From Gyromitra esculenta (taxonomy: Eukaryota > Ascomycota > Pezizomycetes > Pezizales > Discinaceae), in the NCBI GenBank assembly GCA_038503075.1, contig JBCAML010000006.1, positions 992,001-1,056,000 of the forward strand: DNA of 64,000 nucleotides, in the 5' to 3' direction. Shown here piece after piece: positions 13,158 through 52,200 of this stretch (positions are counted from its first letter, which is position 1; the number at the start of each line of letters is the position of its first letter). The notes below the pieces were generated by a model. It ran no database searches and was not told the origin of the DNA. It saw only the letters and a list, made by a program, of their open reading frames with translations. A program made the translations under genes and the position numbers.

Positions 13158-13201
13158 ACGAAAATTACCCGGAAATGGGACACGGTGGGGAGGTTGGCCA
13201 C
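13158..13201 (+). repeat. Left terminal inverted repeat of pogo element
   Basis: 44 nt, identical to the reverse complement of 52157-52200. Begins ACGAAAATTACCC next to the TA at 13156-13157. Confidence 0.95.
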
Positions 13202-13865
13202 CTGCAAGGCAACAGGTCCCTGCATCTCCATACTACCCCACACTTGACACAGCAAGCAAAATGCCCCAAGTTAAAGTGAGAGAGAATTCTGAGAAGGAGC
13301 TGCAAATACAGCAAGCATTAAGCGCTTTACACAGTGATCCAGAACTTTCAATTCGGGCGGCAGGCAAAAAATATGGTGTTCCCCGCTCTACTTTGGCAAA
13401 TAGATACCATGGCAGGACCAAACCCAACTGGGAGGCTCATGAAGACCAGCAGCTAATGACCAAAGAAGAAGAGGCCTCAATGGAAAAATGGATTGGCCAA
13501 TTGGATGATTTGGGGATTCCAGCAAGAGTGTCCAATCTTTACAAAATGGCAGCTTCTATCCTACAGCAACGCAGCCCCCTAGAAACCTCATCTAATATCC
13601 ATATCGGGGATCACTGGGTTACACGATTTCTAGACAGGCATCCTGAGATCGCATACCGATACTTTGCTCGTATCGACAATGAGCGGGCCGCTGCAGGGAA
13701 CCCAAATACAATAAATCAATTTTTTAATCGATTATCTGAAGTCAAGAGCCGATATCACATCAAACCAGACAATACATACAATGCAGATGAGAAAGGATAT
13801 GCGATTGGGCAAGCAAAGCAGGTTAAGGTACTTGCTCGAAGGGTTAGACGAACTTCACGCATCAG

Positions 13866-14316
13866 TCTCAAGGAGTGAGTTTCCGTCAAGCTCTTTGGTA
13901 TCCCCAAAGACGAGCAGTGCTACTTGAACGGAAACTAACAGCGAGAGTTTTGAACGATGGTTCCACAGGCTCTACAATAAGGGGAACTTTAGGGTTCCGG
14001 CAGCGAGACTACGTTGATGTAGTGGCGTGATAGTTACGAGAAGTATCACGAGATCGACGAAGGAGTCTGAGAGAATCCTGGCTTGTATTGTAGTATACAA
14101 GTAGAGTGACAATAGAAGACGTTGCTTAAAGAGAAGAGAAGAAAAAGTACAACAAGAGGGGAAAGCCCTTCGCTTATATACTCATAATCCGACTCCTCGA
14201 TGACAAATGCATGACTCATAGTGGCAAAAACCCAGAAAAACATAATAGAAAATAACAAAGCGCAACAACCTTGTACCCATATACCTAACCGACCAACAAG
14301 ACAATCATCCATGAAA
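13866..14316 (-). mobile_element. Solo LTR S4, in pogo transposase
   Basis: 451-bp minus-oriented chromovirus LTR, flanked by ATCAG at 13861-13865 and 14317-14321. Its removal restores the transposase frame exactly. A TATA-like box (minus strand, about 14174-14184) and the AAGCAACGT motif (minus) are present. Confidence 0.92.
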
Positions 14317-15911
14317 ATCAGGCAGCCAGGGAATAGAGAGTGGGTGTCTGTTTTAGAGTGTGTTTCTGCATTGGGCAAAGTTATTCCAGCCTATTTGATT
14401 TACAAAGGAAGAGCACACCTTATGGGAAATCATGACTATGAAGAACGTGATGAAGCGTCATTTGGGCTATCAGATACTGGCTGGAGTGATGATAAACACG
14501 GCCTCTTTTGGCTTTCCACACATTTTGACCCCTGGACAGCTACAGCTAACGACGAACACTGTTTACTTATCATTGATGGACATTCATCACACCTCTCATT
14601 AGAATTTATCGAATAATGTATCGATCATGATATTCACCTATTATGTCTTCCTTCTCACTCTACGCACCTCTTACAACCGCTTGATGTTGGTCTCTTCTCC
14701 TCCTTGCAACAGTACTACTTAAATTTCCTGGATTTTTGGACCAGAACCCATCCCTACCAACAGCTTAATAAAGGAGACTTCTTTCCTTTATTAATGAAAG
14801 CTCGAAGGTGTGCTTTTACCGAGAAAAACATCAGATCTGCGTTCGCTACTACCGGAATTTTCCCCTTTCGAAGGCATCAGGTGCTCGATATTCTTTAACA
14901 TTTATCCACCTCATCACAACACAACTTTCATGGATGGATGTTTCGTTGGTTGGTTAGGTGTATGGGTATATGGTTGTTGCGTCTTATGGATGTTCCTTTT
15001 GTTTCTTTGGGTTTTCGTTACTATGAGTCATGTCTTTGTCATCGAAAGGGTTGGAACGTGGTATATAAGCGAAGGGATTTCTCCTCTTGTTGTACTTTTC
15101 CTTCTTCTTTCCTTAAGCAACTGTAAGACCGGTACTTCTTACCGCACAGGAAATCTCCAAGAAGCTTTAGATAACAATCTAGACGCTATAACCTGCCCGG
15201 TTGCTATCCGCAACACAATACACAGGCGCAAGTCCTAACTGCTTCTTATGAACCGCTAAAAGATAACCTTAGGGTTCAAAGTAGGGATTGAGCAAAGTTC
15301 CATGAAGAACTTTCAATAGTAAGGTTTTATTAACTAACGCTGAAGGGCCAAGGCCTTGCTAAGCGAGATAAAAGTAATTCACAAGTAAAAGAGTAAATTG
15401 CACGGAAGTAATATTGCTAGAAACAATATAATATTGATAAGGCTCGTTCTTCGTCGCTAATGATCCGACTCAGAGTTTACATCCACTGCAAGAGTATTTA
15501 TAATGCCTCCTTTCTACTATGTTAGGGTATAGTGTGGTGTAGAGGTGCTAACTACTATGTTTCATGGATGGACGTTTCGTTGGTCAGTTAGGTACATGGC
15601 TACATGGTCGTTGCGTTTTGTTGTTCTTTGTGTTTCTTTTACTTTCTGTTACGATGAGTCATGCTTTTGTCATCGAAGGAGCTGGAATTTCAGTATATAA
15701 GCGAAGGGATTCCCCCTCTTGTTGTACCTTTTCTTCTTCTCTTCTTTAGCAACATCTTCTATTGTACACTTATCTCACGGTTGAGTTCCTCGTTAAGCCC
15801 TACAGTATCCCTGAAGGTGAGCAGTGCTACTTAATGAGGTATCAACGCGTTCGAAGAGTGCAGCGTTTCTACAGGTTCTACGATGGATCTATCTCAAGGC
15901 GAGATAAGTGC

Positions 15912-16322
15912 TTTCATGGATGGTTGTTTCGTTGATGGGTCGGGTACATGGGTATATGGTCGTTGCGTTTTGATGTTTGTTCTTTGTGTTTCTATGGGTT
16001 TCCTATTACAATGAGTCATGTCTTTGTCATCGAAAGAGTTGGAATGTGGTATATAAGCGAAGGGTTTTCCCCTCTTGTTGTACTTTTTCTTCTTCTTTCC
16101 CTAAGCAACGTCTTCTATTGTTCACTCTTGTATCCTACAAATACAAACCTCGGTTACATCTCGTAATCCTCCGCTGTCACCGCCTTTAGGTCACCACAAC
16201 TTAAATCAATCATAGAGCCTGTAGAACCTTCGTACACTTTCTCGTTGTTGGTTTCCCATTCAAGTAGCACTGCTCATCTCGAGGGATACTCGAGAGCTTG
16301 ATAGGAAACCTGTTCCTTGAGA
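15912..16322 (+). mobile_element. Solo LTR S0, in the 3' LTR of A
   Basis: 411 bp, plus orientation, flanked by AGTGC at 15907-15911 and 16323-16327. Complete: TTTCATGGATGG start, TATATAAGCG near 16051, AAGCAACGT near 16103, TTCCTTGAGA end. Confidence 0.95.
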
Positions 16323-16659
16323 AGTGCAGCGAAGTGAACAGCGACAGCAAGGGTTCTAAGATAGAACCGAGATAGTATTTTCGATAGTACAGGAGAAGGT
16401 AAACGAGAACGTTGCTTAAGGAAAGAAGAAAGAGAGAGACAAGAGCGACCAAAATCCTTCCTTAAATACCCCGCTTTCCTGTAACACCAACAACAACCGA
16501 AACACAAAGACATTATTGCAATAACCAAAACATAACCGAACAACAAAGAAATTATACAATCATCCGAACAACGATATAACCAACAACCAAACCACGATTC
16601 ATTCTCTGAGTCAATCCATGAAAGTAGCTCCCCCCTTCAAGCGTGAGCTCCTGCGAACA

Positions 16660-19268
16660 TTAGGAGTAACCAAGGTCGGGATGGTTAGAAACGGGTAGGG
16701 GACGGAGAACTCCTTGAGTATGTTGGGTAACTGGTTTTGCCTTCTGGCAGATATGACAGTTACGGACATATTTACCGATCGACTCCCTCATCTTGGGCCA
16801 ATAGAACCTTCTAGCAAGGAGTTCGAAGGTTTTATCGCGTCCTGGGTGGCCTGCAGCAGGGGTATCATGGTGCCTTTTGATCAATTCAAGGCGGAGGGGA
16901 GCAGAGTCTGGAACATAAATGCAGTCTCGATAATAGAGTTTTCCATTTTCTTCCTTGCACTCGCTTAAGGTAATCTCCTTGGATTGTTGGTCCTTATTCC
17001 TTAACGCTAGGAGGATCTTTTCAGGAAACTTGTCAGCAATGTATCCTTCTTCGAATAGTTTTTTCAGGGGGGCGTCCAATTCAGCGGCTTCATTTGATAA
17101 AGAAGCCGACAACAAACTTAGCTTAGGGTCAAGATTCTCCTTTTTTAGCACTACCTGGCTCTGATGTGCTAATCGTTCATCCCCTTCCTTGGGGAGATCT
17201 CCTGATCTCCTGGTCAACACATCCGGTTTTCCCCCTTGGCTTCCTGGTCTGTATGTGATAACAAAATCAAAGCGCGATAGGTATTCAGCCCATCTAGCTT
17301 GACGGTGGTTGAGTTGCTTGGTACTCATAAAGTACTCAAGGTTTTTGTGATCACTGATGACGTCAATTGGGTGTTTTGAACCTTCCAATTCCGGACGCCA
17401 TTCCTCAAAGACTCGGATGATGGCAAGTAGCTCCTTGTCGTAGATTTCATAATTGCACTCTGCTGGTGAATGCTTTTTTGAGAAGAAGGCTACCGGGTGC
17501 AGGATTCCTGCATCGTCATATTGGGACAGGACTCCTCCTGATACGAAGTCCGAGGCATCGGTTTCCACAATGATTTTTTTATCAGGATCAAAGTGGATGA
17601 GGATAGAGGCGGTGGTAAAGGCGTGTTTCAGGTTCTCAAAAGCAATGTCAGCTTCGACAGTCCATTCGAAGTTTATTCCTTTTTTTGTGAGGGCAGTGAG
17701 AGGCGAAGCGAGTTTGGAAAAGCCCAGAATAAATCGCCGGTAAAAATTAGCAAATCCCAGAAATGCCTGGACATCTTTAACGCTCTTAGGCGTCCCCCAT
17801 TCTCTGACGGCTCTTAGCTTTTCCTCGTCCATCTTGATGCCGTCTGGGGTGAGGATTAGGCCTAGGTATTTAGTGGTTTGCACCTCGAACTCACACTTTT
17901 CGGGTTTGAGGAGGATATCATTGTCTTTGAGCGTTTGTAAGACCTTTCGGACATGAATCTGGTGCTCTGCGAAGGTGTCACTGTAGATGACGATGTCATC
18001 CAGGTAGTCTGTGCAAAAGATATCTAGGTATTCGGTGAGGCAATTGTTTACAAAGCGTTGGAAGGTACCGGGGGCATTGGTTAGCCTGAATGGCATGACC
18101 TGGTATTCATAGAGTCCATAACGGGTTCGGAAGGCAGTCTTCCACTCTTCCCCTTCGGCGATTCTGATCTGATGGTAACCCTCGCGGAGGTCGAGTTTTG
18201 TGTACCATTGAGCTTTGGCTAGCCTATCGAGGGTTTCTTGTATGAGAGGAGAGGTATAGCGATCTTTGACAGTGATGGCGTTTAGGCCCCTATAGTCAAC
18301 AAATAGTCGGAGGGAGCCGTCCGCTTTCTTTACAAAGAGTACAGGGGAGCCGGTGGGGGAAGAACTGGCGCGAATAAAGCCCTTCTCTAGGTTGTCTTCG
18401 ATATATTTTTTGAGGACAATAAGTTCCTCCCTTGACATCCCGTAGAGTGGTCCGAACGGTGCATCTTTCCCTTCCATTAATTGTATTTTATGATCGTAGG
18501 GGCGGCGTGGGGGTAATCCTTGTGCTTTTGCTTTATCGAACATGTCCAGGAACTCATGGTATTCAGTTGGGATCCTCGATTTCCATTCTTCCTTGGTTGT
18601 TTCTTTGTCTATGAGTTTGATTATTTCATAGAGTGACATGGCATAAGCTTGGTGACTGCGCTTTCTCGTAAGGGTTCTGAAGCTGGCAGCGCCAATAAAC
18701 GACATGTTTAGTCTGGGAGGAGCGGGGATTGATGGGGAGATAACGATAGGGGACTGAGGGGCACAGTGAGTGGTGCAGAGTTTAGAATTAAACTCAATGC
18801 GTTTGTTGGCGAAATGGAGTTGCACATCATGGTGTTTCATCCATGGTATGCCCAAGACTAGCGGGTAGTGGCCTAATTGGGTCACAAAACAGGGGGCTTG
18901 CTCTCAGTGATTTTGTATAGATAAATTGAGTTTAGCGATGTGGGTAATATCTCCTGAGGCGACAGGGCGACCATCGATGACTTCAAGTTGGCGGGGATTT
19001 TTTAAGGGGGTGAGAGGTAGGGAATGATGACTCGCGAACTTCTGATCAATAAATGCAAATCCGGAGGCTCCAGTGTCTAGTAAAGCGTGTGTTTTTATGA
19101 TTTTATTGCTATGGGAAATATTGCACGATATTACAAAGTGTTCCCCATCCAATTGATCCTCCACGCTTACACCAGAAACCGGGGACCCAGGGATCGGGGG
19201 TGCAGATAAAGGTAGGAAATTTGGAACCAAGGTAGGGTCACTGATCGACCTTGGTTGTATTAGTTTAA
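16660..19268 (-). pseudogene. Pol of element A: nonsense codon and integrase deletion
   Basis: Reads, from 19268 downwards: protease with [13 protein letters not shown]; reverse transcriptase with the YLDD active site (TDYLDDIVIYSD); RNase H (VETDASDFVSGG, YDKELLAI, ISDHKNLEYF); and the integrase zinc-binding HHCC segment (HDTPAAGHPG, CHIC). A TGA at 18904-18906 replaces a sense codon between protease and the rest. After the HHCC region the frame runs into LRPLPVSN, then a short unrelated end; the DDE integrase core and chromodomain present in B are deleted, leaving only the last bases before the purine tract. B at 20235 shows what is missing. Confidence 0.85.
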
Positions 19269-19269
19269 A
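19263..19269 (-). promoter_or_regulatory. -1 ribosomal frameshift site of element A
   Basis: Minus strand T TTA AAC in the gag frame, followed immediately by TAA; pol is open in the -1 frame. After a 6-nt spacer a 9-bp perfect stem follows: arms AACCAAGGT (19248-19256, minus) and ACCTTGGTT (19225-19233, minus). Confidence 0.8.
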
Positions 19270-22200
19270 GACTCGTTGGCTGAGTCTGCTGATTCTAACG
19301 CGAAAAATTGAGGAGGGAGTGGAGGTGGTGGCAGGGAAGAGGCAGGGGGTGTTCGAGTGGCTGGTGGTGCAGTGAGTGCTCCTCTCATTGTGGGTTTCTT
19401 GGGAGCAGAGGGGCAGTTGGCGTATGAGTGGTCGGGGGGAGCGCAGAACATGCATTTTCCAGTGGCGCAGCGCCACTGTTTCTCTTCCTTTCATGGATGG
19501 ATGTTTCGTTGATGGGTCGGGTACATGGGTACATGGTCGTTGCGTTTTGATGTTTGTTCCTTGTGTTTCCATGGGCTTCCTATTACAATGAGTCATGTCT
19601 TTGTTATCGAAAGAGTTGGAATGTGGTATATAAGCGAAGGGTCTTCCCCTCTTGTTGTACTTTTCCTTCTTTTTTCCCTAAGCAACGTCTTCTATTGTTC
19701 ACTCTTGTATCCTACAAATACAAACCTCGGTTACATCTCGTAACCCTCCGCTGCCGCCGTCTTTAGGTCACCACAACTTAAATCAATCGTAGAGCCTGTA
19801 GAACCTTCGTACACTTTCTCATCGTTGGTTTCCCATTCAAGTAGCATCTCACGGTTCGGTCTCTCGCTAAGCCCTTCAGTATCCCTGAAGGTGAGCAGTG
19901 CTACTTAAGCGAGATACCAACTCGTTCGAAGAGTGCAGTGTTTCTACAAGTTCTACAGGAGGTATACTTCAAGGCGAAGTATAGACGGGGGTTCACAGCG
20001 ACAGCGAAGGTTCTGAGGTAGAACCGAGATAGTATTCCAATAGTTTCACAAGAGAAGGTAAACGAGAACGTTGCTTAAGGAAAAGAGAAGAAAACCATAA
20101 CAACCGTCTAAGATCCATCCCTTATATACCCCGCAATCCCTCTCGTGACTCATAACCGAAACACAGCCGAACAACAAAGACATTATAAAGAAACCATCAT
20201 CCGTTGCAACCATTACTTCCCGAACCCTAACCCATCATTTCACTTCATCCGTGAAAGTAGCTCCCCCTCTTAAGCGTGAGCTCCTGCGAATACTAGGAGC
20301 GGTGACCGTCGTTTGGTTCAAGAATATCTCGAGAGCAGAGGTTTCTTGTAGATCTTCCGCAGGTTCCCAGGTGGGATGGGCGTATCCGGTCCACTCGACA
20401 AGGTATTGTAGCCGTCCGCGATAGGTTCTTTGTTCGAGAATCTTTTCAATAAAGTACTCTTCTTGTTCATTAACTATCACGGGTGAAGGCGGGAGTATAA
20501 CTTGTCCGGGTAGAGAGTCGTTGGCAGCGGGTTTCAACAAGGAAACGTGAAAAACAGGGTGATACTTGACCGACACGGGAAGATCAATCTCATAAGCAAA
20601 GGGGGACACGATTTTCTTGACCGAGTAAGGCCCCATCCATTTCCAGTCCAGCTTTCTGGCATTACGCACGGTCCTAACATTCTTCATGGAAACGAAGACT
20701 TGATCGCCAACTTGATAGTTGGGGGCTGGAGTTCGGTGCTTATTCGTTGCGGCCTCTTGGATATCTTGGGCCGTTCTTATTTGCGTCCGTAGATAGTCGT
20801 ATAACTCTTGCATGGTTTGACTGAACGAAGCAGCATCTAAGCTTTGAGATATATTCCGAACAGGAAGAAAGGTGGTATCGAAACGAGGGTGGTAACCGTA
20901 ATTAGCAAAGAAGGGGGAGACTTTAGTACTGGCTGATTCCTGGTTGTTAGCGGAGAACTCGGCCATTGGCAACCATTTACTCCAATCGTCCTGCTGATAA
21001 GAGACGTAAGAGCGCAAGTATTGCTCCATGACCGCGTTCAGCCGTTCCGTTTGTCCATCGGTTTCCGGGTGGAAGGCTGTAGACATCCGAGCCTGAATTC
21101 CAAGTCGTTTACAAAGATCCTTCCAAAAATGAGCCGTGAACTGGGTGCCTCGATCGGAGGTGACATGTGTAGGCAATCCGTGTAGCTTCCAGATATGTTG
21201 CAAATAAAGGTCGGCTACATCTCGGGAATTAACCGTAGTATTGCATGGGATTAGATGTCGCATCTTGGATAATCGGTCGACAATAACCATGATAGCATCA
21301 TAGCCGTTAGATTCTGGAAGGCCTGTAACAAAGTCCATCGAAATCTCTTGCCAGGGACGGTTAGGAATTGGTAAGGGGCGAAGGACGCCTTGAGTTCGTT
21401 GGGTATTTGGTTTGGCTCTTTGGCAGGTATGGCAGTTTCGTACGTACCGGCTGACTGATTCTCGCATCTTGGGCCAATAAAAGTTCCGGGCTAGGAGTTC
21501 AAAGGTTTTGTCGCGTCCTGGATGGCCTGCCGCTGGGGTGTCATGGTGTCTTCGGATAAGTTCAAGTCTGAGAGAGTCGAGGTTGGGAACATAGAGACAA
21601 TCACGGTAGCGTAATAGATTATTCTCATTACTGCATTCACTTAAGGTAATTTCCTTGGATTGTTGTTCTTTATTCTTTAATGCCGCGAGTATCTTTTCCG
21701 GGAACTTATCAGTGATGTATCCTTCTTGAAAAAGTTTAAAAAGGGGGGCGTCCAATTCAGCGGCTTCATTTGACAAAGAAGCCGACAACAAACTTATCTT
21801 GGGATCAATATTCTCCTTTTTTAATACCACTTGGCTTTGATGCGCCAATCTTTCATCCCCTTCCTTGGGGAGATCTCCTGATCTCCTTGTCAATGCATCG
21901 GGCTTTCCTCCTTGAGTGCCTGGTCGATACGTAATTACGAAGTCGAAGCGAGAGAGGTATTCAGCCCATCGTGCTTGACGGCGATTTAGCTGTTTAGTAC
22001 TCATAAAATACTCAAGGTTTTTATGATCGCTGATCACGTCGATGGGGTGCTTAGATCCTTCTAATTCAGGGCGCCATTCTTCGAAGACTCGGATGATTGC
22101 CAGCAGTTCCTTATCATAAATCTCGTAATTGCATTCTGCGGGAGAATGTTTTTTTGAGAAGAAAGCTACTGGATGTAAGACGCCATTATCGTCGTATTGA

Positions 22201-23068
22201 GATAGGATTCCTCCCGATACAAAATCGGAGGCGTCCGTTTCTACGATAATCTTTTTATCGGGGTCGAAATGAATGAGGATAGGGGCAGTGGTAAAGGCAT
22301 GTTTGAGGTTCTCAAAAGCAATATCTGCTTCAACCGTCCATTCGAATGTTATTCCCTTTTTTGTGAGTGCTGTAAGGGGTGAGGCGAGCTTGGAGAATCC
22401 TAGGATAAACCGACGGTAAAAGTTGGCGAAACCTAGGAAGGCTTGGACGTCTTTAACGCTTCTTGGTGTTCCCCACTCTCGGACGGCTTTAAGCTTTTCC
22501 TCGTCCATCTTGATGCCATCGGGGGTGAGGATGAGACCCAAATACTTCGTGGTTTGTACCTCAAATTCGCATTTTTCCGGCTTAAGTAGGATATCGTTGT
22601 TCTTGAGTGTCTGCAGTACCTTCCGTACATGAATCTGGTGTTCCGCAAATGTATCACTGTAAATTAGGATATCATCTAGGTAAGCAGTACAGAATATATC
22701 CAAATATTCAGTAAGACAGTCATTTACGAATCGCTGGAAGGTTCCGGGGGCATTGGTTAGGCCAAATGGCATGACTTGGTATTCATATAAGCCGTAACGG
22801 GTACGGAAGGCTGTTTTCCACTCATCTCCTTCTGCAATGCGTACTTGATGATAGCCGTCTCGAAGATCTAGTTTAGTATACCACTGTGCTTTGGCTAAGC
22901 GATCTAGCGTTTCTCTGATAAGCGGGGAGGTTTTCATGGATGGTTGTTGTGACTTTCGGTTAGCGATACGGGTGTTTTGTTGTGTTGTTTGATTGATCGT
23001 TCTATGTGTTTCCCTTGGTTTCCTTTACAATGAGTCATACGTTTGTCATCAAAGAGGTGGATTATGAG

Positions 23069-23129
23069 TATATAAGCGAAGGGATTTCCCCTCTCGTTGT
23101 ACTTTTCCTTTTCTTTCTTTAAGCAACGT
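23069..23129 (+). promoter_or_regulatory. TATA box and proposed self-primer motif in 5' LTR of D
   Basis: TATATAAG at 23069 lies about 52 nt upstream of AAGCAACGT at 23121-23129, across a pyrimidine-rich stretch. That spacing is compatible with transcription starting at or close to the 9-mer. The same pair occurs in every LTR subfamily here although sequences around the 9-mer differ. Confidence 0.6.
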
Positions 23130-23727
23130 CTTCTATTGCACACTCTTGTATTTTACAATACAAACCTAGGTTATACCTCACAACCTTACGCTGTCGCCGT
23201 CCTCAAGCCCTCTATACTTGAACACTTCGTAGAGCCTGTGGAACCTCGTAAAACACTCTCGTCGCTTAGTTTTCCCTTCAAGTAGCACTGCTTATCTCGG
23301 GGGATATCTCAAGGAGCAGGATTCTCGTCAAGCTCTCAGGTATCCCCCGAGATAAGCAGTGCTACTTGAACGAGAAACCAACGACAGAAGAATGTACGAA
23401 GGTTCTACAGGCTCTACCAATGGTTCAAGTTATGATGACTTGAAGACGGCGACGGCGGAAGATTACGAAGTGTAACCTTAGGTTGTATTTGTAAGATACA
23501 GTGAGCGTACAATAGAAGACGTTGCTTAAAGAAAGAAGAAGAAAAAGCGCAACAAGAGGGGAATTCCCTTCGCTTATATACCACAATTCAACTCCTTCGA
23601 TGACAAAGTCCTGACTCATAATAACAGAAACCCAAAGAAACAAAAAGAACACCAATGTAACGCGACAACCACTAACCCCTATTTCCAACTAACCAACGAA
23701 ACAACCATCCATGAAAGTAGCCCTCCC

Positions 23728-26700
23728 TCATAGCCGTGAGCTCCTGCGAACACTAACCAAGTCCTTCCTGGGCTTATCCGGGTATCTTTGATGGAAGTCG
23801 TCTACTGCTTCCGTTTCTTCATGGTATTCCGCAGGTTCCCAAGTAGGTAATGCATAACCAGTCCATTCGACTAAGTATTGTATTTTTCCTCGACGAAGGC
23901 GAGAGTCTAGAATACTCTCGACAAGGTATTCTTCGTGATCGTTAACTTGGATTGGAGGTGGAGGGGCAATGATTTGGCCTGGGAGAGGATCGGTGGGGGC
24001 GGCTCGTAGTAATGAAACATGGAACACAGGATGGTATTTCATCGAGATTGGTAGATCGACTTCGTAAGCATGGGCCGAAATTACTCGTTTTATTGGGAAG
24101 GGGCCACTCCATTTCCAATCCAACTTTCTCGAGTTCCTGGTTGTCCTCATGTTCTTCATAGACACGAAGACTTCGTCCTTGATTTTGAACGATGGGGCAG
24201 GCGTACGGTGCTTATTGGTACTGCTCTCAAAGACGTCTTGAGCCGTTTTCATTTGCGTTCGGAGGAAATCTCTTAACTCTTCCATCTTTTGGACAAAGTT
24301 ATCGGCATCAAGGGTTTGTGGGGAACGGTCATTGGGGATGATAGAAGTGTCAAACCGGGGATGGTAACCATAATTAGCGAAGAAGGGTGTAGCCTTAGTA
24401 CTTGCGGACTCTTGGTTATTAGCAGCGAATTCGGCAATAGGTAACCATTTAGACCAATCATCTTGCTGATATGACACATAACAACGGAGGTATTGCTCCA
24501 TTACGGCGTTAAGTCGTTCAGTTTGTCCATCGGTTTCCGGATGGAAGGAGGTGGACATACGGGCGGCAATGTTCAAACGTTTGCAGAGATGCTTCCAAAA
24601 CTTTGCAGTGAACTGTGTCCCTCTATCAGAAGTGATATGGGAGGGAAGTCCGTGGAGTTTCCAGACGTTTTGAAGGTATAGTTCTGCCGTTTGTTCGGCA
24701 TTAACGGTGGTGTTACAAGGGATCAGGTGCCGCATTTTCGACAGTCTATCTACTACGACCATTATTGCATTGAAGCCGTTGGATTCAGGAAGGCCAGTAA
24801 CGAAATCCATTGATAGTTCTTCCCAGGGACGGTTAGGAATTGGAAGGGGTTTAAGAACGCCATGGGTACCAAGTGTATTGGGCTTTGCTCGTCGGCAGAT
24901 ATGACAGTTTCGAGTGTATCGTCCGATGTACTCTCTCATTTTAGGCCAATAAAACTGTCTAGAGATGAGTTCGAAGGATTTTTCACGTCCTGGGTGGCCG
25001 GCGGAGGGGGCATCGTGATATCTTTGCAGGATGAGAAGGCGGAGAGGGTCGTGATCAGGGATGTAAAGTTTTTGTCGATAGAAGAGGTAGCCATTTATCT
25101 CAGTACAGTCACCTAAAGTGATTTCCTTGGATTGTCGTTCGCCGTTCTTAAGTGCTAATAAGATTTTTTGTGGGAACGGGTCAGCAATATATCCGTGGTT
25201 CATCAAGGTTTTAAGGGGGGCGTCCAATTCAGCGGGTTCATTTGATAAAGAACCCGAAAACAAACTCAGCTTAGGGTCAAGATTCTTTTCCTTCAAGACT
25301 ACCTGATGTTGGTGTCGTAGCCTTTCATCCCCTTCTTCAGGGAGATCTCCTGATCTCCGAGTTAGTGCATCCGGCTTTCCTCCTTGTATTCCCGGTCTGT
25401 ATGTGATCACGAAATCGAAGCGCGAGAGGTATTCTGCCCATCTGACTTGTCTTCGGTTGAGTTGTTTCGTTGTCATAAAGTACTCTAGATTTTTATGATC
25501 AGTGATGACAGAGATGGGAAGTTCCGAGCCTTCGAGTTCCGGTCTCCATTCTTCGAAGCAGCGAATTATAGCTAGAAGTTCTTTATCATAGATCTCGTAG
25601 TTACATTCAGCTGGTGAATGTTTTTTGGAGAAGAAGGCTACGGGATGGAGCACGCCATGGTCATCAAGTTGGGAGAGGACACCACCGGAGACGAAATCAG
25701 AAGCATCGGATTCCACAAAGATCTTTTTTCGGGGGTCGAAGTGGATAAGCACGGGGGCCTTGGTAAAGGCGTCTTTTAGGGCTTCGAATGCGAGTTCGGC
25801 TTCAACTGTCCATTCAAAGATAGTGCCCTTTCTTGTGAAAGCGGTGAGGGGGGCGGCTAGGCGAGAGAATCCTAGGATGAATCGTCGGTAAAAATTTGCA
25901 AAGCCGAGGAAGGCTTGGACATCCTTAATGCATTTGGGACGATTCCAATCCCTGACGGCCTTGAGTTTGTCTTCATCCATTTTAATCCCTTCAGGTGTGA
26001 GAATTAATCCAAGGTATTTTATAGATTGGACGTGGAATTCGCACTTTTCGGGTTTGAGAAGAATATCATTGGCTTTTAGCGCATCTAGGACTTGCTTAAC
26101 GTGTACCTTATGTTCAGCAAGGGTATCACTATAGATCAAGATATCATCCAGGTAGGCCGTGCAAAAAAGGTCTAGGTATTGGTGGTATTCAGCGGGTATT
26201 CTTTGTCTCCATTCCTCTTTAGTGGTTCTTTTATCGAGGATCTGGTTTATTTCATATAGTGACATCGAGTAGACCTGAATGCCTTTTTTCCTAGCGAGCA
26301 TGCGGAAGCTAGCGGCGCCAATAAAGGCGGCGTTAAGCTTAGCTGGAGGTGGAATGGCCGCAGTGGAGACGACAGGTTGCTTGGGGGCACAGTGGGTGGT
26401 GCAGAATTCAGAATTGAACTCAATGCTTTTGTTGGCGAATTGTAAGTGGATATCGTGGAGATTCATCCATGGGATACCGAGCACTAGGGGGTAATGTCCT
26501 AGCTTGGTAACGAAGAAGGGAGCTTTCTCGGTATGCTGTTGAATGGAAAGCTCCAAGTGACAAAGGTTGGTGATATCTCCCGAGGCAATTGTTCTACCAT
26601 CAATGACTTCCAATTGACGAGGGGTTTTAAGGGGAGATAATGGTAAGGAATGGTGACGCACAAAGTTTTCGTCAATGAAAGCGAATCCTGAGGCTCCAGT

Positions 26701-28130: not shown

Positions 28131-28177
28131 GGTAATTTTTGTTCGAGGGGGAAGCGGGGTAGAGGGTGTAGATTAGG

Positions 28178-28186
28178 AAGCAACGT
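28178..28186 (-). promoter_or_regulatory. Primer binding site of element C (self-complementary)
   Basis: ACGTTGCTT on the minus strand, two bases beyond the 5' LTR end at 28189. Complement AAGCAACGT lies in the same LTR at 28401-28409 (minus), downstream of the TATA box at about 28455-28464. Confidence 0.65.
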
Positions 28187-28640: not shown

Positions 28641-28649
28641 ACGTTGCTT
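28641..28649 (+). promoter_or_regulatory. Primer binding site of element D (self-complementary)
   Basis: ACGTTGCTT, two bases after the end of the 5' LTR, is the exact complement of AAGCAACGT in the LTR just downstream of the TATA box. It lacks the TGG that begins normal tRNA-primed sites. Confidence 0.65.
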
Positions 28650-41411: not shown

Positions 41412-44400
41412 TTCAACCAGAGTCGCCATGTGACCCTGCTGCAGTTCCCTTTTATCACTTTGTCAGCGTTCTCTATTTCTGGGTTTTCGATTATCGGATG
41501 TGTGTGTGGAGGATAATTTGGATAAGGGAACATTTTGTAGTTTCATGTAGCCTTTCCCACCAAAATAAAATCATAAAAACACACGCACTTCTTGACACTG
41601 GGCCTCAGGGTTCGCTTTCGTTGACGAAAACTTTGTGCGTCACCATTCATTATCTCTATAAAACATCGCCGGATTGGAAGTCATCGACGGCCGAACAATT
41701 GCCTCGGGGGATATTACAAATCTTTGTCACTTAGGGCTTTCCATCCAACAACATACTGAGAAAGCCCCCTTTTTCGTCACCAAGCTAGGCCATTATCCCC
41801 TAGTACTCGGTATCCCTTGGATGAACCTCCATGATGTTCATCTACAATTTGCGAACAAAAGCATTGAATTCAATTCTGAATTCTGCCATGTGGTCTTAGC
41901 CATTCCCCCTCCAGCAAAACTAAACGCCGCCTTTATCGGTGCAGCTAGTTTCCGCACGCTCGCCAGAAAGAAGGGTATTCAAGTGTATTCCATGTCTCTC
42001 TACGAAATAAACAAAGTCCTCGATAGTAAAACTACTAAAGAGGAATGGAGACAAAGGATACCCGCCGAATACCACGAATACCTAGACATGTTTGATAAGG
42101 CAAAGGCGCAAGGACTCCCTCCCCGTCGCCCCTATGACCATCGCATTACCCTCCAGGAAGGCAAGGAACCACCATTCGGCCCCCTCTACGGTATGTCACG
42201 AGATGAACTTCTGGTCCTTAAGAAGTACATCGAAGACAACCTAGAGAAGGGTTTCATTCGCGCTAGTTCATCCTCTGCCGGCTCCCCCGTCCTCTTCGCT
42301 GCAAAACCCGACGGATCTCTACGCCTCTGTGTAGACTACCGAGGACTTAATGCTCTTACTGTAAAAGACCGATCTGGCACTCCACATTTCGTTAAGGAAG
42401 CGCTTCGACCGCCATTAAAGCACGATATGGTACTTTCCAAATTAGACGCCGAGATGGATTTCACCAAATCCGCGTCGCAGAAGGAAGAAGAATGGAAAAC
42501 CGCCTTTAGAACTCGTTACGGTCTTTACGAATACATGGTTATGCCATTCGGCGCTCAAATCTTGCGTACGCTTTGTCGTGATTATAGACGATGGTTGGAC
42601 CTCTTTTGCGCTATCTCGACGATATCATATCTATAGTGATACCCTCGCCGAACATAAAAACCACGTCCGACAAGTCATCGATCGTGAAAGCCAATAATAT
42701 CTTTCTCGGCAGAAGTGCGAATTATGTCACGTCAATAAAGTCATCGGATTAATTAACTACTGCACGAAGGAATCAAAATGGACGAAGAGAAACTTAAGGC
42801 CGTACGAGAGTGGAATCGCCCCAAATGTATCAAAGATGTTCAAGCGTTTCTCGGTTTTGCAAACTTCTACCGACGATTCATCCTAGGGTTTTTAAGCCCC
42901 ATATTGCAGAAAAAAAAAAAAAGCGTATCTTCGAATGGACAGTTGAAGCAGAACTCGCTTTCGAGGCCCTAAAAGATGCATTCACTAAGGCCCCTGTACT
43001 CATCCACTTTGATCCCCGAAAAAAGATCTTTGTGGAATCTGATGCTTCCGATTTCGTCTCCGGCGGTGTTCTCTCCCAACTCGACGATAATGGCGTGCTC
43101 CACCCTGTAGCATTTTTCTCCAAGAAACATTCGCCTGCCGAATGCAACTACGAGATCTATGATAAGGAACTTCTAGCGATCATCCGATGCTTCGAGGAAT
43201 GGAGACCAGAACTCGAAGGCTCTGAGCTACCCATTTCTGTCATTACCGACCACAAGAACTTGGAATATTTTATGACCACCAAGCAACTTAACCGGAGACA
43301 AGTCAGATGGGCCGAATACCTCTCACGTTTCGATTTTGTCATCACGTACAGACCAGGAGTACAAGGAGGAAAACCAGATGCACTGACTCGGAGATCGGGA
43401 GATCTCCCTGAAGAAGGGGATGAAAGACTAAAACACCAACACCAAGTGGTCTTAAAGGAGAAGAACGTTGATCCTAAGTTGAGTTTGTTTTCGGGTTCTT
43501 TATCAAACGAACCCGCTGAATTGGATGCCCCCCTCGAAGAATTAATGAATCAAGGATATATCGCTGACCCGTTCCCACAAAAAATCCTTCTAGCACTTAG
43601 AAATGGTGAACGACAATCTAAGGAGATCACCTTAGGCGATTGTACTGAAATCAAGAACCGCTTATTCTACCGACAAAAGCTCTATATCCCCGACCATGAC
43701 CCTCTCCGCCTCCTCATCTTACAACGACATCATGACGCCCCCTCAGCTGGTCACCCGGGACGTGAAAAATCCTTCGAACTCATTTCAAGGCACTTTTATT
43801 GGCCAAAGATGAGAGAGTATATTGGCCGTTATACGCGGAACTGTCATACCTGTCGACGAGCAAAACCAAATACCCTCGGTACCCAAGGCGTCCTGAAACC
43901 ACTCCCAATTCCTAATCGCCCCTGGGAAGAGTTATCAATGGACTTCGTTACCGGTCTCCCAGAATCTAACGGCTTTGATGCTATTATGGTTGTGGTGGAT
44001 CGACTCTCGAAGATGCGGCACCTTATCCCGTGCAATACAACCGTCAACGCCGAGCAAACAGCCGAACTCTACCTCCAAAATGTTTGGAAACTCCACGGAC
44101 TACCTTCCCATATCACTTCGGATAGAGGAACGCAGTTTACCGCTAAGTTTTGGAAACATCTTTCTGCAGCCTGAATATCTCCGCTCGGATGTCGACCTCT
44201 TTCCACCCGGAGACCGATGGCCAGACGGAACGCCTCAATGCCGTTATGGAACAGTATCTTCACTGCTATGTTTCTTATCAGCAAGATGACTGGACAAAAT
44301 GGCTACCTATTGCGGAGTTCGCTGCCAATAACCAAGAGTCAGCCAGTACGAAAGCCACACCCTTCTTCGCCAACTATGGTTACCATCCCCGCTTTGATAC

Positions 44401-45019
44401 CTCCGTTGTCTCCAGTGATCGCTCCCCCCAAACCCTCGATGCCAATGACTTCGCCTCTAAGATGGAAGAACTTAGAGACTTCCTTCGAGTTCAAATGAGG
44501 ACAGCACAAGATACTTTCGAGACCAGTGCTAATCAGCACCGTACTCCCGCCCCTTCATTCAAGGTCAATGACCATGTCTTCATATCCATGAAGAACATGA
44601 GGACGACTAGGAATTCTAGGAAATTGGACTGGAAGTGGAGTGGTCCCTTCCCTGTGAAACGAATAATCTCTGCGCATGCCTATGAAATAGACCTGCCATC
44701 GTCTATGAAATACCATCCGGTATTTCACGTATCACTAATCAAAGCTGCTCCTGTTGACCCACTCCCGGGTCAGATTATTCCACCACCACCCCCGGTCCAA
44801 GTCAATGATCATGAAGAATATTTTGTTGAGAGTATTCAAGATTCTTGTGTTCGCCATGGGAAACTGCAATATCTGGTTGAATGGACAGGTTATGCCTTAC
44901 CTACGTGGGAACCAGCTGATTATCATACGGAGACTGAAGCAGTGGACGCCTTTCACCAACAATATCCGAATAAACCCAAGGAAGGTCTGGTTAGTGTTCG
45001 CAGGAGCTCACGGCTATAA
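41402..45019 (+). pseudogene. Pol of element E, several frameshifts
   Basis: Long open blocks at 41674-42390 (protease end, start of reverse transcriptase), 42810-44174 (RNase H and integrase HHCC and core) and 44150-45019 (rest of integrase and chromodomain LQYLVEWTGYALPTWEPADY). Between 42380 and 42780 the reverse transcriptase core, including the YLDD region, is scrambled by indels, and one indel at about 44165 splits the integrase. Followed by a purine tract AAGGGAGGGGG and the 3' LTR. Confidence 0.85.
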
Positions 45020-45949
45020 GGGAGGGGGTACTTTCATGGATAACTGTTTTCGTTGGTTTGTCGGGTATAAGGGTGCGAGGCTATTGTGTTACGTTGTTGT
45101 TCCTTATGTTTCTTTGGGTTTCTGTTGCAATGAGTCAAGTCTTTGTCATCGAACGAGTTGGAATGAGGTATATAAGCGAAGGGATTCCCCCTCTTGTTGT
45201 ACTTTTCTTCTTCTTTCTTTAAGCAACGTCTTCTATTGTACACTCACTGTATCTCACAAATACAACTTCAGGTTACACCTCGTAATCTTTCGCCGTCGCC
45301 GTCTTCAAGTCACCAGAACTTGAACCATTAGTAGAGCCTGTAGAATCTTCGCACTTTCTCCTGTTGTTGGCTTCTCGTTCAAGTAGCACTGCTTATCTCG
45401 GGGGATACCTGAGAGCTTGACGAGAATCTCGCTCCTTGAGACCCGAGCAGATCTGGACCGGTTACGCAAGTTGCGTTTGGAGCAAGAAAAGAAGAAAGCT
45501 AAAGCATTGGCCCGGAAGGAAGCACTCTCTCAAGGGGCGAAGTTTATCTCCAAGCTCTCAGGTATCCCCCGAGATAAGCAGTGCTACTTGAAGAATAAAC
45601 TAAGCGACGAGAGTGTTTCTACGAAGTTCCACAGGCTCTACGAAGTGTTCGAGTATAGAGGACTCGAGGACGGCGACAGCGTAAGGTTATCTGGTGTAAC
45701 CGAGGTTTGTATTCGTGAAATACAAGAGTGTGCTATAGAAGACGTTGCTTGAAGAAGAAGAAGGAAAAGTACAACAAGAGGGGAAATCCCTTCGCTTATA
45801 TACTCGTAATCCACCTCTTCGATGACAAACGTATGACTCATTGCAAAGGAAACCAAGGGAAACATATAGAACGTTTTAGCAAAGCAACACAACAAAACAC
45901 CTATTCCGCTAACCGAACGTCACCACAACCATCCATGAAAGTACTCGCA

Positions 45950-48900
45950 TAGCCGTGAGCTCCTGCGACACTAACCAGACCTTCGCCGAACATTTGGATA
46001 CCTTTGGTGGAACGCGTCTACTGCTTCGTTTCTTCGTGATATTCGCAGGTTCACGTAGGTAGTGCGTATCCCGTCCATTCGACTAGATATTGGAAGCTTT
46101 CATCGATAGAGCGTGAATCAGTATACGCTTCGACAAGATATTCGCTCGTGGTCGTTTACTTGGACGGGTGGGGGTGGTGGAATGATTTGACCGGGGAGTG
46201 GATCGGTGGGAGCTGCTTTGATTAGTGAGACGTGAAATACCGGATGATATTTCATGGAGAACGGCAAGTCTATCTCATGGCGTCATGCGCTGAGATTATT
46301 CGTTTCACGGGGAAGGGACCACTCCATTTCAGTCTAATTTCCTCGAATTTCTAGTCGTCTCATATTCTTCATGGATATGAAGACACGGTCATTGACTTTA
46401 AACGAAGGGCGGGGACACGATGTCGGTTGGTACTTGGACTCGAAAATATCTTGTGCCGTCTCATGCAGGTTCGAAGGAAGTCTCTAAGTTCTTCCATTTT
46501 TGAAGCAAATAGGTCGGCATCGAGGGTTTGCGGGGATCGGTCATTAGAGATGATTGAAGTATCGAAACGGGGATGGTATCCGTAGTTGGCGAAGAAGGGT
46601 GTGGCTTTCGTGCTGGCTGATTCTTGATTATTAGCAGCGAACTCGGCAATAGGCAGCAATTTGTACCAGACGTCGTGTTGGTACGGAACGTTACAGCGAA
46701 GATATCTTGTTCCATAACAGCGTTAAGACGCTCGGTTTGACCGTCCGTTTCTGGGTGGAAAGATGTCGACATGCGAGCGGAAATATTCAGGCGTTGACAG
46801 AGGTGTTTCCAGAACTTGCCAGTAAACTGTGTCCCTATCGAAGTAATATGAGACGGTAGTCCATGGAGTTTAAATGTTACGGAGGTAAAGTTAGCCGTTT
46901 GTTCAGCATTGACGGTGGTGTTGCAGGGGATTAAGTGTCTCATTTTTGATAATCTATCCACTACGACCATTATTGCATCAAAACCATTGGATTCAGGGAG
47001 ACCGGTAACAAAATCCATCGATAGCTCTTCCCAGGGGCGATTGGGAATTGGGAGGGGCTTAAGGACGCCGTGGGTGCGAGGGTATTGAGGCTCGTCGACA
47101 GGTATGGCAATTTCGGGTGTATCGTCCAATGTACTCTCTCATTTTAGGCCAATAAAAATGCCTAGAGATTAGTTCAAAGGACTTTTCACGTCCTGGGTGG
47201 CCAGCAGAGGGGGCGTCATGATATCTCTGTAAAATAAGAATACGGAGAGGGTCGTGATTGGGGATGTAAAGCTTTTGTCGATAGAATAGATAACCATTTT
47301 TCTCGGTGCAATCGCCTAATGTAATTTCCTTGGATTGTTGTTCGCCGTTCTTAAGTGCTAGTAAGACTTTTTGTGGGAACGGGTCAGCATTATATCCTTG
47401 GTTTATTAAGATCTCGAGAGGGGCATCCAATTCAGCGGGTTCGTTTGTTAAAGAACCCGAAAACAAACTCAGCTTAGGGTCCAAATTTCTTTCCTTCAGG
47501 ACTACTTGGTGCTGGTGTTGTAGTCTTTCATCCCCTTCTTCAGGGAGATCTCCTGATCTCCGAGTCAGAGCGTCCGGCTTTCCTCCTTGTACTCCTGGTC
47601 GGTATGTAATGACAAAGTCAAAACGTGAGAGGTATTCTGCCCATCTTACTTGCCTACGGTTGAGTTGCTTAGTAGTCATAAAATACTCTAAGTTAACATG
47701 GTCGGTAATAACAGATATGGGTAGCTTCGGATCTTCGAGTTCGGGTCTCCATTCTTCAAAGCAACGGATGATGGCTAGCAGTTCTTTGTCGTAGATCTCA
47801 TAGTTACATTCAGCAGGTGAGTGTTTCTTAGAGAAGAATCTTACGGGATGCAGTATGCCTTGGTCATCGAGTGAGAGAGACACGCCGGAGACGAAGTCGG
47901 AAGCGTCGGATTCAACGAAGATCTTTTCTTGGGATCGAAATGGATGAGTACGGGGCTTTAGTGAAGGCGTCTTTAAGTGCTTGAAAGCGAGTTCGGCTTC
48001 AGCGGTCCATTCGAAGACAGTGCCTTTTTTTGTGAAGGCGGTGAGAGGGGCAGCAAGGCGAGAAAATCCTAAGATAAATCTGCGGTAAAAGTTTGCGAAA
48101 CCGAGAAAGGCTTGTATATCTTTAATTGACTTTGGGCGGTTCCAGTCTCGGACGGCTTTTAATTTATCCTCGTCCATCTTGATGCCTTCGGGGGTAAGGA
48201 TTAAGCCTAGGTATTTGATGGACTGCACATGAAATTCGCACTTCTCAGGTTTGAGGAGGATGTTGTTAGCTTTGAGGGCATCTAGGACCTGTCTGACATG
48301 TATTTTATGTTCAGCAAGGGTGTCGCTATAGATGAGGATGTCGTCGAGGTAGGCCGTGCAAAAAAGATCAAGGTATTCTCGGAGTGAGTCGTTCACAAAT
48401 CGTTGAAATGTGCCGGGGGCGTTGGTAAGGCCGAATGGCATTACCATGTACTCGTATAAGCCATATCGGGTTCGAAAGGCGGTTTTCCATTCCTCTCCCT
48501 CAGCGATGCGAATTTGGTGGAAACCATCCCTGAGATCGAGTTTGGAGTACCACTGGGCTTTTGCGAGGCGATCTAGGGTTTCTTTGATCAAGGGGGATGT
48601 ATATCGGTCCTTGACCGTGAGAGCATTGAGGCCACGATAATCGACACAGAGACGAAGGGAACCATCGGGTTTGGCGGCGAATAGGACTGGGGAACCGGCA
48701 GAAGATGAGCTGGCACGGATGAATCCTTTCTCCAAGTTGTCCTCGATATACTTTTTTAGAACTAAGAGTTCATCTCGTGACATACCATAGAGTGGGCCAA
48801 ATGGGGGTTCCTTGCCTTCCTGAAGGGTGATGCGGTGGTCGTAGGGGCGACGGGGAGGGAGTCCTTGTGCCTTTGTTTTATCAAACATATCCAGGTACTC

Positions 48901-49611
48901 ATGGTATTCGGCAGGTATTCGCTGTCTCCATTCCTCTTTAGTGGTCTTGCTATCAAGAACCCTATTAATTTCGTAGAGGGACATAGAATACACTTGAATA
49001 CCCTTCTTTCTGGCGAGCATGCGGAAGCTAGCTGCGCCGATAAAGGCGGCGTTTAGTTTGGCTGGAGGGGAAATAGCGGCGGCTGAGACGACGGGTTGCT
49101 TAGGGGCACAGTGGGTGGTGCAGAATTCAGAATTGAATTCAATGCTTTTGTTCGCAAATTGTAGATGGATGTCATGGAGATTCATCCAAGGGATACCGAG
49201 TACTAGGGGGTAGTGGCCTAGCTTGGTAACGAAGAAGGGGGCTTTCTCAGTATGTTGTTGGATGGAAAGCTCCAGGTGACAAAGGTTCGTGATATCTCCC
49301 GAGGCAATTGTTCGGCCGTCAATAACTTCCAATTGGCGAGGGGTTTTTAGGGGAGATAGAGGCAGGGAATGGTGACGCACAAAGTTTTCGTCGATGAAAG
49401 CGAATCCTGAGGCTCCAGTGTCAAGAAGTGCGTGTGTTTTTATAATTTTATTTTGGTGGGAAAGGCTACATGAAACTACAAAATGTTCCCCATCCAAATT
49501 ATCCTCCACACACACATCTGATACTGAGAACCCAGAAATAGAAAACGCTGACAAAGGAGAAAAAGAAACCAGAGCAGGGTCACAAGGCGACTCTGGTTGA
49601 ACTAGTTTAAA
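45950..49611 (-). pseudogene. Pol of element F, frameshifted in integrase and after
   Basis: From 49611 down to 47059 the frame is open: protease ([13 protein letters not shown]), full reverse transcriptase (YLDDILIYSD), RNase H and the HHCC zinc domain. A small in-frame loss damages RNase H near 47880 (VSGVSLSLDD for VSGGVLSQLDD). From about 47130 the integrase core continues in another frame, with further indels near 46850 and 46680, and the chromodomain region below 46300 is broken up. Confidence 0.85.
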
Positions 49612-50830
49612 GACTCAACTGAGTCTGTTGCGTCAAAGGCGGAAAAACGAGGTGGCAGGGGCGGTGGAAAAACAGAGGAAGCAGGAGGGGCGGCGGGGGC
49701 GTTAATAGCGGCTCCCCTCATAGCGGGGCGTTTGGAGGCAGAGGGGCAGTTGGAGAATATATGTCCTTCTCCGGCGCAAAATAGGCAGCGATTATTGGTC
49801 TGTCTCCATGTTTTTTCTTCAGGCGATAGCTTTCTCCTTCCGTTGATCTGAACGTAGCGTTGTTCAGGAGCTGGGCGGGAGGTAGAGGTACAACCGAAGG
49901 AGAGATCCATGGGGGCAAGCCCTCCCGGGGCGAAGGAGGAGGAAGAGGGGGTGAAGGCGGCAGGGGCGGCGGCAGGGGCGGTGAATTGTCCCATGGTGTT
50001 ACGGGCAGCGTTTTTCTTTTCCTCTCTTCTTGCTCGGATACGATTATCCAAGCGGAGGAGGAAGGCACAGAGGGAGGTGAAGGTGGTAGGAAAGTCGGCT
50101 ACGGTCACTACGGCTTCTTTTAGCTCGTCTGACATCCCGAACTCCAAGGCATCGTTTTTTGCTGATTCATCGTAGTTCAACCGCCCCATGATTCGCTGAA
50201 AGTCGGCAAGGTAAGCAGAGAAATCTCGCTTCCCTTGTCGAAGCTGGTGTAGCTCGCGGCGGGCCGTTCCGAGTGGGTCAGGATCTCCGAAGGCGCTGTT
50301 TCGAGCGGTAATCAATTCGGCGGCGTTATTCCAAGTGGTAGTCCCGTCGGGAGGACAGAGTGGCGGATTTGTTCTAGGGCGGCTCCTCGAGGCGGCTAAT
50401 AGCATACAATATCATATTGTTCTTCTTGAAAAGCGATCGGCGTTAGCAGAGCTTTGATCGGAGTTGCGGACGAATCCGGGAGTTTATCGCGAGATCCATT
50501 GAATTTATCTGGATCGGGCATCTTGTCCGAGCGGCCTCGCGAGTGTGGGCAGGAGGGGGTGGCGATGGTGCGGGTGGTGGGGGGCTACTGGCTACGAAGG
50601 CGGGGCGACGGCTTCGGCCGCCTGCAGTTGGGACTGGCAAGTATTGAATCTTGCCGTCATATTGTTCCGTTCTTGTATAGCCTCTTCCAGTTGTAGAGTG
50701 CGTACGTGAGGTTATCGACCCGTTGTTGGTAGTGTGATCGGAGGTGAGCGTCGGCGGCGTTGGCGGCGCGCGGAAGCTCGAAGTTGGGAAAGTCAGGCGG
50801 GATTGTGGTGGCGTGGTTATGCAGAAGAAG
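49602..50830 (-). pseudogene. Gag of element F, 5' half broken
   Basis: The 3' half is open from about 50350 to 49602 (gag domain RRELHQLRQGKRDFSAYL, zinc knuckle CLFCAGEGHIFSNC, end TTA AAC TAG). The 5' half, 50350-50830, is in pieces with many single-base indels. The frameshift heptamer 49605-49611 and its 8-bp stem (49591-49598 with 49567-49574) are intact. Confidence 0.8.
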
Positions 50831-51393
50831 AGCAGGATGAGGCGAAGAACGTAATCTCGCGGCGAAGTTTATCTCCAAGCTCTCGGGTATCCCCCGAGAT
50901 AAGGCTACTTGAAGAATAAACTAGCGACGAGAGTGCTTTCTACGAAGTTCCACAGGCTCTACGGTTGTTCGAAAGATAGAGGACTCGATGACGGCGACAG
51001 CGTAAGCGTTATCCCACAGAATCGAGGTTTGTATTCGTGAAATACAAGAGTGTGCTATAAGACGTCGTTGAAGAAGAAGGAAAAGTACAACAAGAGGAAA
51101 TCCCTTCGCTTATATACTCGTAATCCACCTCTTCGACGACAAACGTATGACTCATCGTGCGAAACCTTTAAACATATAGAACGTTTTAGCAAAGCAACAC
51201 AACAAAACACCTATTCCGCTAACCGAACGTCACCACAACCATCCATGAAACACTCAAAGCCAAAGGTAGGCAGTCCTACACCATATATTATCTTAATTCT
51301 AATAGTATTCAATAGGAAAAAAGCGATCGCGTAACCCTCATAAAGATCTCCCTGCTCGAAACGTCAAAATGCACGAGGTTCCAACAGATCACA

Positions 51394-51803
51394 TTTCATG
51401 AATAACTGTTTTCGTTGGTTCATTAGGTACAGGGGTACAAGGTTGTTGTGTTACGTTGTTGTTCTTTGTGTTTCTTCAGGTTTCCGTTGCAGTGAGTCAA
51501 GTCTTTGTCATCGAACGAGTTGGAATGTGGTATATAAGTGAAGGGATTTCCCCTCCTGTTATGCTTTTCCTTCTTCTTTCTTTAAGCAACGTCTTCTATA
51601 GTACACTCTTGTATTTTACAATACAACCCTCGGTTATACCTCATAACCTTACACTGTCGCCGCCCTCAAGTCCTCTATACTTGAACACTTCGTAGAGCCT
51701 GTGGAACATCGTGAATACTCTCGTCGCTTAGTTTTCCCTTCAAGTAGCACTGCTCATCTCGGGGGATACCTGAGAGCTTGAAGATAAACCTCGCTCCTTG
51801 AGA
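51394..51803 (+). mobile_element. Solo LTR S5, near the 3' end of pogo
   Basis: 410 bp, plus orientation, flanked by TCACA at 51389-51393 and 51804-51808. Starts TTTCATGAATAACTG and ends CTCCTTGAGA; TATATAAGTG near 51531. Confidence 0.93.
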
Positions 51804-52156
51804 TCACACTCGTTCAGGGGAGCCATAGGTGCCCTTGACAGCGATAGTGAATAAATATCGATCGGCCTTAATGGGCCCACAACAGGAGGCATCAGCTATT
51901 CTTTCTATACCGCAGGTAGGTTCTCAGTCTCGGTTCTTTATTATGGAATAAGGTGGTTCTAACCCATAGACCTAGTAGGAGCTGACTAGGGGACACCTCT
52001 AGGGATTCAAAGGCCAGCACTTTATTTTCTCCCTCTCTCTTCTATTGGAATACAAAGCTCTAGATCTCTATTGTATATTAAATATATATTTTTATCGCGC
52101 TCGCTGCTTGTTGTTGTGTCTTCAGCTTTTTTCTCCCGCTTAGTTCAGTTGCGACC

Positions 52157-52200
52157 GTGGCCAACCTCCCCACCGTGTCCCATTTCCGGGTAATTTTCGT
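52157..52200 (-). repeat. Right terminal inverted repeat of pogo element
   Basis: Perfect 44-nt partner of 13158-13201, ending GGGTAATTTTCGT next to the TA at 52201-52202. It lies 39 kb from its mate. Confidence 0.95.

Follow-up and report, generated by a model that had tools for sequence, protein, structure and literature searches.

A nine-level nest of LTR retrotransposons inside a pogo-type transposon of the fungus Gyromitra esculenta

Introduction

How deeply can transposable elements become stacked in a small fungal genome, and does a deep stack call for anything beyond random insertion? The question is raised by a locus of Gyromitra esculenta at which a pogo-type DNA transposon contains 13 long terminal repeat (LTR) insertions, many of them nested within one another. 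The locus lies in a 64,000-nucleotide stretch of DNA, here called the window (positions 992,001 to 1,056,000 of contig JBCAML010000006.1, GenBank assembly GCA_038503075.1), on the contig labelled C6 of a 47.1-Mb assembly in 23 contigs; C9, C18 and similar labels denote others of these contigs. The longest chain has nine levels, pogo > S3 > X > S2 > A > S1 > B > D > C, each element being the host of the next (Table 1). There is very little doubt that 14 transposition events really are stacked at this locus.

The nesting of LTR elements is textbook biology, and nested LTR retrotransposons of maize were reportedly described by SanMiguel in 1996 and 1998. For wheat chromosome 3B, 30,199 reconstructed nested insertions in up to eight layers are given for scaffolds of 833 Mb (PMC4290129). 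The Gyromitra nest resembles these grass nests of maize and wheat 3B in that elements lie within elements, are ordered by interruption and carry a clock in the divergence of their LTRs. It differs from wheat 3B in that the genome is that of a fungus with 47 Mb, nine levels are packed into 39 kb, the seed is a DNA transposon and many of its levels are solo LTRs about 410 bp long. For a small genome such as this one of 47 Mb, nine levels is deep and unusual, and the nest is of a known sort; no record is claimed.

Insertion junctions and empty sites

The host, which a preliminary description of this DNA had put at 2.2 kb, measures 2161 bp without its insertions. It is flanked by TA on both sides, and its ends form a 46-bp inverted repeat, TA included, without a mismatch (13156-13201 and 52157-52202, 100% identity in a self-comparison of the window). 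With its TA duplication, inverted ends, Tc5-type helix-turn-helix domain (HTH_Tnp_Tc5) and DDE_1 domain it is like the fungal pogo/Fot1-like elements to which we presume it is akin, and it is unlike them in being degenerate: it carries stops and five LTR insertions made directly into it (S4, S3, E, F and S5). S3 opens a chain of eight LTR insertions, one inside the other, and Sx forms a side branch in the left LTR of A. Seven of the 13 insertions (S4, S3, X, S2, Sx, S1 and S5) are solo LTRs.

All 13 target duplications that had been claimed were found flush with the LTR ends. Twelve are perfect 5-bp repeats and that of E, CTCGA/CCCGA, agrees at four of five positions; the B junction reads GAAA-TAGCA. 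When non-cognate left and right copies were paired as a control, none of 156 pairs agreed at all five positions and two agreed at four. The duplications show which element sits in which and give no dates, so the statement that they date every level has to be dropped.

Comparison of the emptied sites with other genomic copies, the check that the preliminary description had proposed, bore out 12 of the 13 insertions and failed for E. Flanks were compared separately, the nest's own loci were excluded and flank matches ending more than 12 bases from the junction were discarded. Each of the 12 insertions has at least one uninterrupted copy in which the flanks overlap by the duplication, and 11 show the 5-bp overlap. 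The empty sites of S4, S3, F and S5 are all provided by one target, a sibling pogo element on C18 (941945-944120; three overlapping locus identifiers, counted once), which is uninterrupted and whose pieces are 97-98.5% identical to the host, with one noisy piece at 87%. The overlap is 5 bp in 20 of 20 target S-type LTRs for X in S3, in all 28 targets whose two flanks adjoin for S2 in X, and in 32 of 32 targets for S1 in A. For A in S2 (19 targets) it is 5 in nine and 4, 6 or 7 in ten; for Sx in A (14 targets) it is 5 in 12 and 6 in two, and A's own uninterrupted right LTR is 100% identical across the aligned flanks of the Sx site. All 19 targets for B in S1 overlap by 4, which equals 5 after allowing for a right flank that starts one base late. 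Among 29 other B copies (the best-matching of 40 scored, from 598 first-look candidates), 28 are uninterrupted at the site of D with a 5-bp overlap, and in the 29th (L062) the right flank lacks a long match. For X, A, B and C the targets are related LTRs, of which the best five for each agree with the flanks at about 78-100% identity. Junctions and empty sites together confirm the order of host and insert claimed for the nine-level chain.

Repeats that had been mis-joined during assembly could merely appear nested, and base quality at the locus is uneven. Small indels and clustered changes are dense at 39641-42900 and at both ends of F (about 45942-46900 and about 50400-51150), in patches whose edges are fairly sharp, and the 3' end of F has many single-base losses. 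The main noisy patch starts in pogo near 39641, crosses the boundary between pogo and E and ends near 42900. Such indels and clusters resemble an unpolished long-read consensus; the noisy patches are probably the result of poor consensus quality, or possibly of local hypermutation. A mis-join in any element would, however, pair unrelated duplications, whereas all 13 pairs are cognate, no non-cognate pair is perfect and 12 emptied sites match other copies, which makes an assembly artefact highly improbable. The clusters found in the LTR pairs of A, B, D, E and F, in the right half of X and in pogo at first looked like repair scars or local hypermutation; uneven consensus quality is the simpler explanation and probably the right one. 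Clusters like those of X are also present in a few other X copies (L016, L025 and L031).

At the site of E the C18 pogo copy reads TTCTCT-CCCGA-GCAG. Since this copy has CCCGA, the left duplication of E looks like a CCCGA from which two bases were lost.

Reading frames agree with the order of insertion. The pogo transposase stays in phase through S4, which separates HTH_Tnp_Tc5 from the DDE_1 that follows, and has a stop further on; the frame of the C18 sibling is broken too. Phase is likewise kept in the pol of B across D and in the gag of A across S1, where three stops lie ahead of a downstream motif that we take to be zinc-knuckle-like. Conservation of phase across S4, D and S1 supports the insertion order without implying intact genes: what peeling restores is phase, and the pogo gene and the gag of A carry other stops. 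Elements can be peeled off in order along the chain, and the order as a whole is partial, since S4, E, F and S5 cannot be placed against the chain, nor Sx against S1. Formation of a solo LTR is not strictly ordered relative to the next insertion either, because the insertion may come first if the crossover lies on its far side.

Table 1. Elements of the nest, with positions in the window
Element	Description	Target duplication	Level	Position	Strand	Evidence
pogo	pogo-type DNA transposon	TA/TA	1	13158..52200	+	inverted repeat; C18 sibling; HTH_Tnp_Tc5 and DDE_1
S4	solo LTR, 451 bp, in pogo	ATCAG/ATCAG		13866..14316	-	junctions; C18 empty site
S3	solo LTR, own length 410 bp, in pogo, split by X	ACAAC/ACAAC	2	14926..39535	+	junctions; C18 empty site
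X	solo LTR, own length 949 bp, in S3, split by S2	GCAAC/GCAAC	3	15122..39316	-	junctions; uninterrupted S-type LTRs
S2	solo LTR, own length 408 bp, in X, split by A	CTATG/CTATG	4	15560..38800	+	junctions; empty sites
A	LTR pair, own length 4855 bp, in S2	ACTTA/ACTTA	5	15773..38600	-	junctions; domains; empty sites
Sx	solo LTR in left LTR of A	AGTGC/AGTGC		15912..16322	+	uninterrupted right LTR of A
S1	solo LTR, own length 410 bp, in gag of A, split by B	CTTCC/CTTCC	6	19489..37040	+	junctions; empty sites
B	chromovirus, own length about 6.0 kb, in S1, split by D	TAGCA/TAGCA	7	19847..36982	-	pol domains; junctions; empty sites
D	chromovirus, own length 5.8 kb, in pol of B, left LTR split by C	GAGGT/GAGGT	8	22932..34051	+	uninterrupted B copies; long gag and pol open reading frames (ORFs)
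C	chromovirus, 5292 bp, in left LTR of D	GGATA/GGATA	9	23307..28598	-	LTRs identical (410/410); domains; empty sites
E	chromovirus, 5663 bp, in pogo	CTCGA/CCCGA		39779..45441	+	junctions; domain pieces; left 3 kb or so noisy
F	Ty3/gypsy LTR element, 5723 bp, in pogo	CACTC/CACTC		45528..51250	-	junctions; C18 empty site; both ends noisy
S5	solo LTR in pogo	TCACA/TCACA		51394..51803	+	junctions; C18 empty site

The nest is bordered by ordinary genes, with pieces of DNA ligase and kinase genes on the left and a gene for an ankyrin protein on the right. The best named matches of the kinase are from Tuber magnatum (75%), Ascodesmis nigricans (73%) and Pyronema domesticum (66%), and other records reach at most 93% (best 120 of 4339 matches). 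The top match of the ligase is at 86%, and its named match is from Microsporum canis (36%). Within the nest, the gag of C has its best named matches in Morchella sextelata at 40-50% and matches to other records of up to 56%. The kinase and gag matches by themselves would mark the genome as probably that of a Pezizomycete. An Rfam scan of the whole window gave no match at the gathering threshold.

Element families, LTR ends and priming

In D, the reverse transcriptase (RT), RNaseH, integrase (IN) and chromodomain all lie within one pol ORF. B encodes RT, RNaseH, IN, SH3_Tf2-1 and Chromo in an ORF beyond D, with the start of the ORF on the other side of D. The pol domains of Ty3/gypsy elements together with a chromodomain are found in C, from which most of RT is deleted, and in E, where they are in broken pieces. 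The pol of A ends after the integrase zinc finger, with no IN core and no Chromo, and A is not classed as a chromovirus. An apparently full-length relative of X on C9, read at its inner edges (L020 and L021), has SH3_Tf2-1 and Chromo at its pol end; a 478-amino-acid ORF at the opposite, gag-side end has no Pfam match. Since these two domains lie in the C-terminal pol ORF beside the C9 X LTR, the X family is assigned to the chromoviruses, and X, judged by the domains of this relative, is the solo LTR of a third chromovirus family. The earlier count of at least two chromovirus groups and one other LTR family therefore needs amendment, as the family of X has a chromodomain too. On C9, C11, C16, C17 and C20 there are X LTRs in pairs on one strand, their starts about 7.1 kb from each other, which point to full-length copies. 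Many X copies have few private changes, and the family looks recently active.

The Ty3/gypsy pol with SH3_Tf2-1 and chromodomain is like that of the Tf1/sushi chromoviruses, such as Tf1 and MAGGY, as these are portrayed in PMC10085805 and PMC3350952. The LTRs of S, A and B type begin with TTTC and end with GAGA in gene sense in 12 of 12 insertions, and the canonical TG..CA is found only in X; this is unlike the fission-yeast elements, whose 5' LTRs are described as always ending in CA (PMC10085805). In A, B, C and D, the sequence after the 5' LTR contains 9 nucleotides complementary to the AAGCAACGT site inside the LTR, a match of which 0.018 would be expected per element. Such a complement would be required for self-priming in the manner of Tf1/sushi elements (PMC10085805) and hints that reverse transcription may be self-primed in these four elements. 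In E and F, whose stretches are noisy, no 9-nucleotide complement was found; their LTR complements span at most 6 nucleotides and lie at sites other than AAGCAACGT. The insertion of X into S3, with its GCAAC duplication, falls at the LTR site that corresponds to the site of the 9-nucleotide complement.

Two elements of the chain have pol deletions at short direct repeats. That of C (near 26173) removes 522 bp of RT in frame at repeats of about 17 bp, and that of A (near 16683) lies at repeats of about 10 bp. The junction in C was found in no other copy among the 40 scored of 583 candidates, and the closest sibling, which matches at 99% on either side, is without the deletion; among 40 scored of 1100 candidates for A, only A's own locus spans its junction. 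Copies beyond the 40 scored for each element could share the deletions. Both deletions occur in elements whose LTRs are identical or nearly so.

Ages of the insertions

The two LTRs of an element differ, outside complex clusters that were separated by eye, by one substitution in A, one in B, two in D and none in C over 404-427 aligned positions. With the clusters included the counts are A 1, B 3, D 4 and C 0. From the former counts the inner half of the nest (A, B, D and C) looks recent, and numbers this small cannot resolve the order within it. BLAST identities of 95.5% for D and 98.1% for B seemed to contradict that order; upon realignment the excess proved to be mostly clusters. The LTRs differ at 20 of 403 positions in E and 10 of 385 in F, both affected by noisy stretches, so that the ages of these elements are not usable.

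Pogo and its C18 sibling differ at 45 of 2041 sites (39641-39778 excluded). Of these differences 35 are transitions, 19 of them at CpG, a pattern such as deamination of methylated CpG would give. Between the left half of X and that of another copy, 10 of 436 positions differ, and 8 columns of this half are private among 32 aligned rows; the right half has 32 private columns among 26 rows.

Depth, chance and targeting

It is possible that the depth of the nest reflects random insertion in a repeat-rich genome, with no need for self-targeting, and we give this explanation an even chance. Nesting is common in the genome: examined loci elsewhere hold 34 further nested junctions (from a tally of 57 rows, 20 belong to this nest and the other 37 were merged by hand to 34; matches of less than 60 bases were discarded). 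Some of the 34 are rearranged, the X copy L033 having two different hosts. In a simulation of 13 uniform random insertions into a growing cluster, nine levels were reached in only 0.05% of runs when solo LTRs formed instantly and in 0.6% when none formed, which speaks against chance. These frequencies concern one locus chosen for its depth, are uncorrected for all clusters in the genome and, with nests being common, amount to a hint.

Orientation provides no general rule. In the nest, host and insert are antiparallel in all eight LTR-in-LTR pairs (2^-8), and gene senses alternate strictly from S3 to C; elsewhere 21 of the 34 junctions are parallel and 13 antiparallel.

Alternatively, the chain could be real and local sequence signals in LTRs could attract integrations. 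Six of the 13 insertions are located in LTRs, and those in LTRs of S type occupy two zones (X at 196 and A at 215; B at 357 and C at 376), two pairs within 20 bp having a post hoc chance of 0.026. Against such attraction, the LTRs of hosts that have an internal region (A, B and D) received two of four hits, which are too few to judge, and in 12 plant genomes LTRs and the integrase domain are described as the places where nesting is rarest (PMC6911290). Guidance by LTR signals is unlikely.

The history that best explains the locus begins with a pogo element landing at a TA. LTR retrotransposons then entered pogo and one another, each leaving a 5-bp duplication, and seven became solo LTRs by recombination between their own LTRs, either before the next insertion or in a manner that spared it. 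Chromodomain guidance to H3K9-methylated chromatin is reported for MAGGY (PMC3350952), and by analogy the chromodomain integrases may have carried new copies to heterochromatin seeded by old ones, such that the stack fed itself. A and C may have moved with proteins of their relatives or lost parts of pol after landing. In its strongest form, this account would make the locus a site of runaway self-targeting. Heterochromatin would have been seeded by a silenced pogo relic, integrases with chromodomains, from three families, would have kept returning to it, depth would have outpaced random insertion, and A to C would have arrived in the time of about one to two substitutions in each LTR pair. 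We regard that form as doubtful.

Several points weigh against this history of the locus. No clean empty site for E was found among other copies, because its left flank lies in a noisy stretch. The LTR pair of D shows more substitutions (two) than that of B, the element it entered (one), although the counts are too small to matter. Chromoviruses are very common here, with 225-608 first-look candidates for each of the queries A, B, E and X, and their share of the nest may merely mirror genomic abundance. The pol defects of A and C may predate or postdate insertion, and the heterochromatin step is one that we infer.

Conclusions

LTR-divergence clocks are stated to fail in about one quarter of plant nests (PMC7251063). 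The Gyromitra nest offers a long, independently checked insertion order for testing such clocks. It suggests that a small fungal genome may stack elements as deep as reported for wheat chromosome 3B, and it makes chromodomain-guided insertion a testable idea in a fungus.

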